NCBI GenBank assembly: GCA_017442735.1 | Contig: JAFRZE010000003.1 | Span: 1 to 64,000, forward strand | Length of the DNA stretch: 64,000 nt | Source: Bacillota bacterium | GTDB lineage: Bacteria > Bacillota > Clostridia > Lachnospirales > Bianqueaceae | Reading direction: 5' to 3' | Shown: positions 2 to 23,448 of the stretch, one piece after another | Layout: the number at the start of each line of letters is the position of its first letter | How positions within the stretch are numbered: the first letter of the stretch is position 1 | Program-made: the position numbers and the translations under genes | The notes under the pieces: model-generated | The model's database searches: none | What the model was told of the DNA's origin: nothing | Seen by the model: the letters and a program-made list of their open reading frames with translations, nothing else

Positions 2-19525
<19,524 letters not shown>

Positions 19526-19608: not shown

Positions 19609-19791
19609 ACTAAGAATAATCTTGAACTACTTGAACAGATGGTTCATGTTCTACGAAAAGCAGAACTAGTTGTTTATGGACAAAGTACGGGGTTTCTGGT
19701 AAAATGAAGTTGAGCCGGCTTTTTGAAGAGTGTTTTTGATTATGGTGGAGTGGCCGAATCAAAAGCAAAATCCAAAAAGGAGGCTCGTAAG

Positions 19792-20497
19792 ATGAACCAG
19801 AGTATGCTGTTCAACGATATTATTCCTATCACTACAGATTATGCTTTTTGTAAGGTGATGGAGGATAACCCGGAAATTTGTCGTAAACTCGTCGAGTTGA
19901 TCCTAATGGATGATCTCGGTGAAATTGAACTTGTTGTTCAGAAACAAAAGACGATCGATACGACTCCGGATGGACGTGGTGTAAGGCTGGATGTCTACGC
20001 CAAAACACCGGACTTTGTCTGCAATATAGAAATGCAGACGACGGACGAAAGAAACCATGGAAAGCGGGCAAGGTATTATCAGAGTCTGATCGATGCTGAC
20101 CTGCTGGACAAAGGGCAGAGATTTGAAAACGGATGCGGAGATTTGGTTTGTTTGTGCGACAGAAGTGACATGCCAGAAAGAAGATGATCTGGGTCATTTT
20201 CTGCGATATATGCGCAGCATGGTTCCATCAAATGCTTTTACAGAAGAAGTACAAAGAGCGGTCGAAGCTGTTTCGAGAGATGCGGAATGGAGGAAGGAAA
20301 TGTATACCTGGGAGATGAAGATTCAGCGCGAAAGAGAGGCGGCTGCCAAAGAAGCGGCGGAAAAAGTAAAAAAAGAAATGATCTTTAATATGAAAGAAAA
20401 CGGTTTGCCAAATGAACAGATTGCGGCAATTGTCAAGCTTCCAATTGAAGTGGTCGTACAGCTGGAGAATGAACCGTTGCATCCCAATAAGGACTAA
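19792..20497 (+). pseudogene. Broken Rpn/PDDEXK-family nuclease (transposase-like) gene
   Basis: The ATG at 19792 follows AAAAAGGAGG. The first frame gives the N-terminal part typical of Rpn/PDDEXK_2 proteins: a start mentioning ITTDYAFCKVM, then RLDVYAKT and CNIEMQT, which match the D and E-x-Q of the nuclease core, then RARYYQSLIDADLL. About base 20100-20150 the match moves to another frame, which carries the family's C-terminal part (EDDLGHFLRYM and a basic coiled helix). The conserved middle that normally joins these two parts is missing, so both a frameshift and an internal deletion are inferred. Such genes are often multi-copy and decay readily. Function here is probably lost. Confidence 0.75.
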
Positions 20498-20511
20498 GAA
20501 TAATGAATAAT

Positions 20512-20540
20512 AACCAGGACCGTATTTGTCCTGGTTTTTG
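20512..20540 (+). terminator. Intrinsic terminator between the nuclease pseudogene and the RNA repair cassette
   Basis: AACCAGGAC and GTCCTGGTT pair across a 7-base loop and are followed by a T-run. It lies inside any extended N-terminus of the next gene that would start at 20503, which argues for the downstream ATG at 20563. Confidence 0.8.
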
Positions 20541-20562
20541 TATAGAGAATGAGGTGTGTCAG

Positions 20563-21501
20563 ATGGCGATTCCTGAGATGGTGATGATGATCGGACTTCC
20601 GGCAAGCGGAAAGTCCACACTGGCTTTAGAGTATGAGAAAAAAGGATATCATATTCACAGTTCGGACGCGATCCGAAGAGAACTGTACGGTTTTCTGGAT
20701 CAACGCGATCCGAACAGAGTGTTTCAGCTGCTTCAGAAGCGGGTCAGGGAAGACCTGAAAAAAGGGATCAGCTGTGTTTATGATGCGACAAATATCCATT
20801 ATCGGTACAGGACTGCGTATCTGGCGGAGATTAAAAGTATTCCTTGTATAAAGACGGCGGCGGTCGTCATGGCGCCGCCAGGACTGGTGAGAGAGCGCAA
20901 TCTTCTCCGGGGCGAAGCCGTCGTACCGGACGATATCATCGAAAAGATGTTGCGCTCCTACCATGCGCCGTACTATCATGAAGGCTGGGACAGGATCGAG
21001 CTCATTCCCGGATGCGATCTTGAGCTGATCAGGGAAGACGCGAAGAAAAATGATGGCTGGGAGCCGGAGAAGATGGTAGAGATCGGACATGATAATCACC
21101 ATCACCCGGAGACGATTGGACAGCATATGCTGATGGCGGAGGCCTATGCGAAGGAACACGGATTTTCGGAGCTGGTAAGAATAGCCGCTCGATATCATGA
21201 TATCGGCAAGCCATACACCAAAGCGTTTTTCAATTATAAAGGTGAACCTACTGAAGAGGCTCATTTCTACGGACATGAGAGTGTGAGTGCGTATTTCTAT
21301 CTCCTGAAAGCACTGGCAGAGGGGATGGAGACTGATCCGGCACTGTATGTGGCAGCCATGATCAGTCTGCATATGCGGCCGCTTCATGCATGGAACAACT
21401 CAGAGAAAATGAGAGAGGTGGATGGAAAACTTCTGGGCGAGACGCTGTATGAAGATGTCTGGAAGCTGAACGCTTGTGATAAAAATGCACGATTGAAATA
21501 A
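20563..21501 (+). CDS. Polynucleotide kinase-like P-loop domain fused to HD phosphohydrolase (putative RNA end-healing enzyme)
   Basis: 312 residues from ATG 20563, preceded by GAGGTG. The N-terminal half is a P-loop kinase of the Pnk/AAA_33 type: Walker A GLPASGKST, then SSDAIR and DATN motifs and an arginine-rich lid (RERNLLRGE). The C-terminal half is an HD domain with H in GQHML, the HD pair in ARYHDIGKP, a further H in FYGHES, and a later LHMRP. Family knowledge: HD-Pnk from Runella removes 2',3'-phosphates with HD and phosphorylates 5'-OH ends with Pnk, but there HD comes first; here the order is kinase then HD, as in T4 Pnkp, which uses an unrelated phosphatase. The gene is four bases from an RNA ligase gene, so a role in RNA end healing is inferred. 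Alternative: a nucleotide or nucleoside kinase/phosphatase. Confidence 0.8.
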   Translation: MAIPEMVMMIGLPASGKSTLALEYEKKGYHIHSSDAIRRELYGFLDQRDPNRVFQLLQKRVREDLKKGISCVYDATNIHYRYRTAYLAEIKSIPCIKTAAVVMAPPGLVRERNLLRGEAVVPDDIIEKMLRSYHAPYYHEGWDRIELIPGCDLELIREDAKKNDGWEPEKMVEIGHDNHHHPETIGQHMLMAEAYAKEHGFSELVRIAARYHDIGKPYTKAFFNYKGEPTEEAHFYGHESVSAYFYLLKALAEGMETDPALYVAAMISLHMRPLHAWNNSEKMREVDGKLLGETLYEDVWKLNACDKNARLK

Positions 21502-21505
21502 TAAA

Positions 21506-22645
21506 ATGGCAAGTTTGATTTTAGATTTAGTAAAGCAGTATCCCATCGAAACCGTCAAAGAAAGGATGAACGAGAAAGCAGTCTCGGTCAGTTGGGACGG
21601 GGATCTGTATATTTTTAATTACGGTGCCGCGCCGGACTTTTCCGATCCATATGTGTGCGAAGCAAGAGGGATCATCATCGATATAGTTCGCCAGAAAGTC
21701 GTGTGCCGCGGATTCGATAAATTCTTCAATTTCTCGGAACCCTACGCGGCTTCGATCGACTGGGAGAGCGCGAAGGTACAGGAGAAGGTGGATGGTTCGA
21801 TCATCAAGCTGTACTGGTATGACGGGGAATGGCGGTTTTCTACGAATTCGGTCGTCAACGCGAAGAATTCCCATCTTTCGGAAGTAAACGCCAATATCGG
21901 CGGTAAGTTTAAAAACTTCGATGAACTGATTCGGGCAGCGGAAAACTATGGCTCGATCCCTTTTGAGAAACTGGACAAAAATGCAACCTATATTTTTGAG
22001 CTGGCTTCTCCGTACAATCATGTGGTGATCCACTACGGGAGGATCATGCTGTACCATACCGGAACAAGAGATAATCTTACCGGACAGGAACGAGTGGAAG
22101 ATATCGGTGTGATCCGGCCGGCGGAGTATTCGTTTCATACGCTGGATGACTGTATCGAAGCCGTGAAGAAGCTCAACCGGTCTGATCAGACAGTGGAAAA
22201 AGAAGGGTTCGTGGTCGTCGATCAGTACTTTCGAAGGATCAAGATCAAAGCGCCGGAGTATCTTTTCTTTCATAGTAAAGCGAATAATCATGTCCTGACG
22301 AAGGAACGCGTCATCGAAATGATCGAGAGTGATGATTTCGATGAAAAGCTGTTCCTGGAGCAGTTTCCGGAATTTTCCGGTGTTTTTTCCTGGTATGAGG
22401 CCGAACTGATGCATTTTCTGGAAGAATGCGAGGCGCATGCGATGGCCGGACGGGAGGCTTTTCAGGAAGGTATCCTGTCAGCAAAGGAATTATACGCGAA
22501 ATATCAGGATGATCCCTATGTGTTTGTGGTGATGAACGCGTTCAATCGCCCAGAGAAAACGATGCGAGAGATCATGAACGATATCCGGCATACAAAGAAG
22601 ATGAGTCTTCTAAAGGATTATGTGTCCGATGGAGGAAACGGATGA
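21506..22645 (+). CDS. T4 Rnl1-type ATP-dependent RNA ligase
   Basis: 379 residues, close to the length of T4 RNA ligase 1 (374). Nucleotidyltransferase motifs are visible in order: motif I with the adenylated lysine as KVDGS (about residue 93), preceded by KFFNFSEP as in Rnl1; motif III-like YIFELASPYN; motif IV EGFVVVD; motif V RIKIKAPEY. It should seal 5'-phosphate and 3'-OH RNA ends with ATP. The start is 4 bases after the kinase-HD stop and lacks a strong Shine-Dalgarno sequence, which suggests translational coupling. With the upstream kinase-HD it forms a heal-and-seal pair. The substrate, tRNA or another RNA, is unknown. Confidence 0.85.
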   Translation: MASLILDLVKQYPIETVKERMNEKAVSVSWDGDLYIFNYGAAPDFSDPYVCEARGIIIDIVRQKVVCRGFDKFFNFSEPYAASIDWESAKVQEKVDGSIIKLYWYDGEWRFSTNSVVNAKNSHLSEVNANIGGKFKNFDELIRAAENYGSIPFEKLDKNATYIFELASPYNHVVIHYGRIMLYHTGTRDNLTGQERVEDIGVIRPAEYSFHTLDDCIEAVKKLNRSDQTVEKEGFVVVDQYFRRIKIKAPEYLFFHSKANNHVLTKERVIEMIESDDFDEKLFLEQFPEFSGVFSWYEAELMHFLEECEAHAMAGREAFQEGILSAKELYAKYQDDPYVFVVMNAFNRPEKTMREIMNDIRHTKKMSLLKDYVSDGGNG

Positions 22646-23448
22646 AAATCTATGAACTGAAATATTCCAACACGAATACGTATCTGATCGAAGGGTCGAA
22701 GGGCCGGATCCTCTGGGATACCGGATGGGCCGGAACATTTCCCGCGTTCTGCCGGGAGATGGGAGAGCTTCGGATCCCGGTCCAGAAGATCGACTATATT
22801 CTGATCTCGCATTTCCATCCGGACCATATGGGGATCGCGCAGGAGATCGCGGATCTGGGACCTGTGATCACGGTGATGGATGTACAGAAAGAGTTTCTTC
22901 ATGCCGCGGATACTGTCTACGCAAAGGAAAAGAATATGCGATTTCTTCCGATCAGGGATGAGAAAATCAAGGTGATCTCTCCGGACGAAAGCCGGAGCTT
23001 TCTGGCTCGGCTGGGAATTCGGGGCGAGATCCTTTCTACGCCGGGTCACAGTGATGACAGTATCTCACTCTGCCTGGATGAAGGCGATTTCTTCGTGGGC
23101 GATCTGAATCCGCTATATGAGCTGGAGTTACATCAGGGGACGCAGATCGCTAAAAGCTGGGAAAAGCTGCTTGAATGTCATCCGAAAACGATCTACTACG
23201 GCCATGCGAAGACTGCGCACCTTGAGAAGAAGGAGATACAGGAAAAAGCTCCGCAGGATCTGGATCTTCTGGTCACAAGAATCACGAAGTATATCGATCG
23301 GGGCCTGTCGCTGGAGAAGATCGCGAAGAAAACAGGCGCAGAGTTTTCTTTTGTAGAGAATGTGGCCAGGATGTATCTGACGCATCAGAATATCAGTGTG
23401 CAGGGGATCCTGGACAGGATCCAGTCACGCGCAGGTTATGGAAGATGA
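22642..23448 (+). CDS. Metallo-beta-lactamase-fold hydrolase in the RNA repair cassette
   Basis: 268 residues. The HFHPDHMG motif (HxHxDH type) gives the dinuclear metal site; TPGHSDDS and FFVGDL supply further His and Asp ligands, and YYGHA is the late His. The start ATG overlaps the stop of the RNA ligase gene (ATGA), with GGAGG just upstream. The C-terminal 60 residues after the MBL core look helical and may be a small accessory domain. MBL enzymes range from thioesterases and lactonases to nucleases. The overlap suggests work linked to the ligase (for example RNA trimming or a small-molecule by-product), but the sequence lacks the extra nuclease domain of RNase J and RNase Z hallmarks were not identified, so the substrate is unassigned. 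Confidence 0.75.
   Translation: MKIYELKYSNTNTYLIEGSKGRILWDTGWAGTFPAFCREMGELRIPVQKIDYILISHFHPDHMGIAQEIADLGPVITVMDVQKEFLHAADTVYAKEKNMRFLPIRDEKIKVISPDESRSFLARLGIRGEILSTPGHSDDSISLCLDEGDFFVGDLNPLYELELHQGTQIAKSWEKLLECHPKTIYYGHAKTAHLEKKEIQEKAPQDLDLLVTRITKYIDRGLSLEKIAKKTGAEFSFVENVARMYLTHQNISVQGILDRIQSRAGYGR

Follow-up and report, generated by a model that had tools for sequence, protein, structure and literature searches.

A kinase-HD protein and the T4 Rnl1-type ligase encoded directly after it in a Bacillota genome probably form a pair, derived from phage, that heals and seals RNA ends and now resides on a bacterial chromosome. The window analyzed is a 64,000-nucleotide stretch of contig JAFRZE010000003.1. 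Domain identities, conserved catalytic residues, linkage and fusion with Rnl1 ligases, nesting within viral trees and purifying selection were all established computationally; the reactions of the two proteins, RNA over DNA as their substrate and tRNA as their target are what we infer.

An earlier note on this DNA had described three open genes with a 4-base gap between the first two and an ATGA overlap between the last two, and the sequence contains all of these features. We refer to the genes as KH, LIG and MBL. The relevant features are as follows:

20512..20536, + strand: terminator-like hairpin of the gene upstream of KH (pattern scan, consensus match only)
20548..20562, + strand: 5' limit of identity with the sister species, and likely ribosome-binding site of KH (blastn, sequence)
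20563..21501, + strand: KH, 312 aa; kinase at residues 1-153 (~20563-21021), HD phosphohydrolase at residues 154-312 (~21022-21498)
21506..22645, + strand: LIG, 379 aa; T4 Rnl1-type ATP-dependent RNA ligase (Pfam RNA_lig_T4_1)
22642..23448, + strand: MBL, 268 aa; MBL-fold hydrolase (Pfam Lactamase_B)

A mechanical ORF caller places the KH start at 20503. We consider 20563 the better choice because identity with the sister species (G001) begins at 20548, the DNA upstream of that point differing between the two genomes in blastn, and because the terminator-like hairpin occupies 20512-20536. A search for structured RNA around the three genes found none.

Profile searches agree with the proposal that KH joins a kinase-like P-loop domain to an HD domain, since Pfam matches AAA_33 (E 2.8e-17, residues 6-136) and then HD (E 7.3e-8, residues 189-274). 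Across 66 aligned KH sequences, the kinase residues G11, S15, G16 and K17 (P-loop), R38, N77 and R83 are invariant, and D35 and R116 are nearly so. The HD residues H181, H188, H212, D213, H238 and H270, whose conservation the earlier note had singled out for checking, are likewise invariant, D306 is conserved in at least 90%, and the resulting H, HD, H, H, D pattern would suit a two-metal HD site. In the AF2 model of KH (pLDDT 95.8, pTM 0.93), the kinase half matches the Pnkp kinase domain of Clostridium thermocellum (4gp6; Z 18.9, rmsd 2.0, 151 residues) – the closest solved structure to KH – and also mammalian PNKP and T4 Pnk (Z about 16). The HD half (154-312) matches PhnZ (Z 14.7), the sole HD-domain structure listed, which we take to be an oxygenase; the HD fold is found in nucleotidases and oxygenases too. 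PADLOC returned weak HD-domain matches of KH to Cas3 and no match for LIG.

The domain order of KH sets it apart from its relatives. KH carries a polynucleotide kinase and an HD domain in one protein, as the HD-Pnk class does, but the HD domain of that class is N-terminal to the kinase, an order not found in KH. The Runella HD-Pnk is reportedly one such protein, with its HD domain first. Nor does KH share the layout of T4 Pnk (PseT), in which a HAD-type phosphatase follows the kinase, the second domain of KH being HD. Phage RM378 encodes a 5'-kinase/3'-phosphatase (NP_835697; KH profile E 1.7e-35) with the same two domains in reverse order (HD 12-158, kinase 187-336), and the same genome encodes an Rnl1 (NP_835690; LIG profile 2e-42) about 6.5 kb from the kinase gene, whereas KH and LIG adjoin. 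The RM378 stretch L203:48060-49145 is annotated as a probable poly A polymerase; its profile shows an HD domain and a polynucleotide kinase. Deinococcus DRB0098 also holds both domains in one protein, HD first (PMC1997131), and its neighbors, unlike those of KH-LIG, are a macro-domain-like gene and one for an ATP-dependent ligase from a different family.

These comparisons uphold the kinase-first order noted earlier for KH. All 66 KH members match two PHROGs families, phrog_6931 (function annotated unknown) and phrog_505 (polynucleotide kinase). In phrog_6931 the kinase part occupies profile positions 185-338 of 343, suggesting that HD comes first in that family, and PHROGs contains no named family for the kinase-first KH. 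Because the RM378 and Deinococcus kinases are HD-first, the kinase-first arrangement with HD is a real, largely unnamed variant when judged against those two, with an earlier description possible. The parts of the KH-LIG pair are themselves of known kinds.

LIG is a T4 Rnl1-type ligase with a KVDGS motif, as had been claimed. It matches Pfam RNA_lig_T4_1 (E 8.3e-21; 75.3 bits against a cut-off of 28.3) and, by phmmer, T4 Rnl1 structures. The motif I lysine K94 (K94-x-D-G) is invariant in 59 aligned LIG sequences, and R54, E165 (motif III), E233-G234 (IV) and K246/K248 (V, KxK) are invariant in 19- and 59-sequence alignments alike. The AF2 model (pLDDT 93.5) aligns with T4 Rnl1 at Z 21.7 and an rmsd of 2.7 over 227 residues; as for a C-terminal helical domain like that of T4 Rnl1, 2c5u aligns with residues 1-374 at an rmsd of 14 over both domains, the tight core (2.7) comprising only those 227 residues. 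A fungal tRNA ligase comes next, and both rank ahead of DNA ligases. LIG scores 52.5 bits (residues 35-363) against the NCBIfam equivalog for T4 RnlA, TIGR02308, where the cut-off is 242.25, which makes it a relative and not an equivalog of T4 RnlA. It is 19% identical to a T4-like phage ligase.

The pairing of KH with RNA ligases recurs well beyond the window. The earlier note had called for a neighborhood survey of such pairs, and we carried it out on 79 loci with a full-length KH, of which three are non-viral. Near-duplicate contigs among them make the counts non-independent. Neighboring ligases were assigned with profiles, and OB-fold RNA ligases were defined as PF09414 with PHA02142. An RNA ligase lies within ~6 kb of KH in 47 of the 79 loci – 20 Rnl1 and 27 OB-fold RNA ligases – and within 300 bases in 22. 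Eight more loci have RlaP, an RNA-ligase-associated nucleotidyltransferase, alone within ~6 kb. The remaining 24 lack both RlaP and a recognised ligase within that distance and count against the pair as read here. By a rough estimate rather than a computed control, two random genes in a ~120-kb phage genome would fall within 6 kb of each other about one time in ten. Conversely, of 77 Rnl1 loci, 23 lie within 6 kb of a full KH, and another 17 have a kinase-only relative.

In two IMG/VR contigs, the kinase, the HD domain and Rnl1 are encoded as one polypeptide of about 680 aa (L309:4990-7032 and L320:4993-7032). The KH part spans residues 1-303 and the Rnl1 part about 325-651, in the same order as the genes of the window; read from a GTG the frame has 680 codons, and 679 if it starts at the ATG immediately following. 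The two fusions differ at 22 residues and at 80 of 2037 bases and therefore do not reflect a shared assembly error. Judged from its domains, this single chain is a possible one-chain RNA repair enzyme of phages. The conserved catalytic residues, the recurrent linkage in phages and this natural fusion protein together strongly support reading KH and LIG as a pair for healing and sealing RNA ends.

KH is mainly a phage family. Within the order, a search of 392 genomes turned up full-length KH in 3: G000, to which the window belongs, the sister species G001 and a third genome, G257. A KH profile search across the phylum found it in 1 of 398 genomes, G000. The other phylum matches listed cover the kinase or the HD part alone, those to HD alone lying mostly in frames of ~450-500 aa that, as a guess, are probably CCA-adding enzymes. 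Viral contigs yielded more than 70 full-length KH relatives, with one scan returning 80 loci, most of them full-length; named phages with KH include FADO, PJN02, BcoS-136, KLEB27-3 and LC76P1 and, more distantly, phage G. A scan of genome contigs added at least one full-length copy, in a Bacilli MAG. A single-sequence search of viral contigs found no close relatives of LIG or MBL, and an alignment-based LIG search returned 80 viral loci.

Phylogeny points to a viral source. In the KH tree, the window and its sister species join phage contig L115 and G257 with 97% SH-aLRT support, amid viral sequences; the LIG tree likewise places the two among viral rows, with L115/G257, L254 and L261 nearby. 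Both trees are unrooted and come from quick searches. KH directly precedes LIG in both L115 and G257, and in L115 LIG starts a few bases after KH. By our own naming of its translations, L115 seems to encode a DNA methylase, an HNH-like protein and a helicase-like protein. The KH-LIG pair is thus best read as phage-derived and chromosomal, an origin that the earlier note overlooked; of the interpretation given there, the end-healing and sealing pair is well supported and the three-gene operon is not.

That operon would be a single RNA repair unit in which MBL processes RNA ends or strips a blocking group. MBL is an MBL-fold hydrolase, as had been stated (Pfam Lactamase_B, E 2.3e-21), and the ATGA overlap, the conservation of the block in the sister species and a dN/dS of 0.094 speak for its participation. 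So does the remote sequence similarity of MBL to human LACTB2 (4ad9, 2.8e-7), a reported endoribonuclease, through which a role of MBL in RNA is thinkable; the linkage argues against it. MBL orthologues (56-66% identity) are present in eight further genomes of the order, two of them with a match of only about 190-206 residues, and neither KH nor LIG adjoins them there. Their neighbors include DUF3795, GH4 and AraC-type genes (Pfam) as well as dapF-like, murE-like, HAD-like and RND-like genes (judged from first residues only). Conversely, the KH-LIG pairs of L115 and G257 lack MBL, which accompanies KH-LIG only in the window and in the sister species. The block is about 95% identical between those two genomes, so the three-gene arrangement counts as one event. 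MBL also falls below the NCBIfam RNase Z cut-off (18.9 bits against 292.95). The earlier note had regarded homologues of the three genes that usually lie apart and act on unrelated substrates as the outcome that would speak against the operon: KH and RNA ligases are linked, and MBL orthologues are apart. We consider a working part for MBL in RNA repair, and with it the three-gene operon, unlikely, given the eight genomes in which its orthologues sit beside unrelated genes. MBL is probably a co-transcribed passenger.

The KH-LIG pair could instead be a phage leftover with no role in the host, as its rarity in genomes and phage ancestry would allow. The G+C content of KH (0.50) and LIG (0.47) is lower than that of their neighbors (0.53-0.57), and a promoter-like site before KH in the sister species (TTGAAT, 17, TATAAT; such matches are about as frequent as chance would give) is absent from the window, whose sequence ahead of KH is different. 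Nevertheless, both genes are intact in two species, and dN/dS between these (KH 0.042, LIG 0.095, MBL 0.094) is similar to that of nearby host genes, which indicates purifying selection on KH and LIG. The flanking genes, trkA and trkH, belong to the host, and nothing of phage type adjoins the pair. We therefore regard a mere leftover as quite unlikely.

Kinases of the class to which KH belongs act on DNA too. That KH and LIG mend DNA ends, not RNA, is nonetheless very unlikely, since their phage partners are Rnl1, OB-fold RNA ligases and RlaP and since LIG is closer to T4 Rnl1 and fungal tRNA ligase than to DNA ligases, although DRB0098, a kinase of the same class, phosphorylates DNA (PMC1997131).

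Two genomes of the same genus (G002 and G006) carry trkA, trkH and the gene after them but lack the three-gene block upstream. In the sister species the block directly follows a tRNA-Ala gene (L015:6260-6334). The genome of the window has this tRNA-Ala close to the end of contig C66 (L238:about 1795-1870); beyond it come a transposase-like stretch and then a repeat-rich gene, of which only the start precedes the contig break. C66 likely joins the start of the window; if so, a giant surface protein and an Rpn-like gene lie between the tRNA and KH. The surface protein (window 224-19525; 6433 aa, repeat-rich) has a CHAP-like start, many Cna-B-like repeats and a sortase-signal-like end, and probably begins within the end of C66. 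The gene for the Rpn-family recombination-promoting nuclease looks split into two overlapping ORFs (19723-20187 and 20093-20497), perhaps by a frameshift. KH-LIG of G257 lies downstream of a tRNA-Thr gene (L020:3485-3557), and the site downstream of a tRNA in two distantly related genomes is possibly an insertion hot spot. Divergence from the sister species is 24% at the KH 5' end and about 10% further on (20548-21300), but it falls below 3% in parts of LIG and trkA, a pattern suggestive of recombination at the left edge of the block.

Characterized repair systems offer partial parallels. Bacterial Pnkp differs from KH-LIG in its calcineurin-type phosphatase and its ligase of another type. Like KH-LIG as read here, Pnkp1-Rnl-Hen1 combines end healing with sealing (PMC4411300); unlike in that system, no Hen1-like gene adjoins KH-LIG. 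A further likeness is to T4 Pnk and Rnl1, which act on cleaved tRNA, repairing tRNA-Lys by end healing and then sealing (PMC2610378): there too the kinase comes first and the phosphatase second, and LIG is an Rnl1 homologue. The T4 pair differs in being phage-borne rather than chromosomal, in the type of its second domain, which is HD in KH, and in the low identity of its proteins. Jumbo-phage genomics has grouped RNA ligases and kinases with RlaP into one repair set and describes HD-like phosphatases for a small number of phages (PMC7824862).

In the best-supported scheme, which follows the T4 pair, an endoribonuclease would cut RNA, most likely in a tRNA anticodon loop, leaving a 5'-OH end and a 2',3'-cyclic phosphate. 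KH would use its HD domain to open and then remove the 2',3'-phosphate, the kinase domain would phosphorylate the 5'-OH using NTP, and LIG would adenylate itself at K94 and then join the healed ends. Against the phosphatase step stand HD-motif mutants of D. radiodurans DRB0098, which retained the 3'-phosphatase activity seen, perhaps through contamination (PMC1997131). The likeliest target would be tRNA, and repair of anticodon-nuclease damage is a reasonable hypothesis; the most natural guess is that the host keeps the pair for self-protection against tRNA-cutting toxins. Against the anticodon-nuclease link, the genome, which is 88.8% complete, yielded no PrrC/RloC-type gene (PF13166). In favor of a repair role for the pair, no RtcB or PF09414 ligase turned up elsewhere in that genome, the PF09414 search being blind to LIG, which belongs to another Pfam model.

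More tentatively, kinase-HD-Rnl1 may be a distinct, unnamed phage RNA repair module – sometimes a trifunctional chain with kinase, 2',3'-phosphoesterase and ligase on one polypeptide – that bacteria such as this one have domesticated as a constant safeguard against tRNA-cutting toxins or abortive-infection nucleases. The kinase-first HD-type end-healing family occurs across many phages and lacks a functional name, and its pairing and fusion with ligases give it a testable function. The chromosomal copies suggest that bacteria retain phage repair enzymes and use them for themselves. This inverts the usual picture, where a phage mends cuts made by its host. The single-chain enzyme may also have practical use in RNA ligation. 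Another, two-ligase arrangement was observed in three further genomes of this taxonomic order (L017 in G388, L018 in G168 and L019 in G245), where an OB-fold RNA ligase (Pfam-checked in L017) precedes an Rnl1 ligase; in G388 a calcineurin-like phosphoesterase lies between the two.
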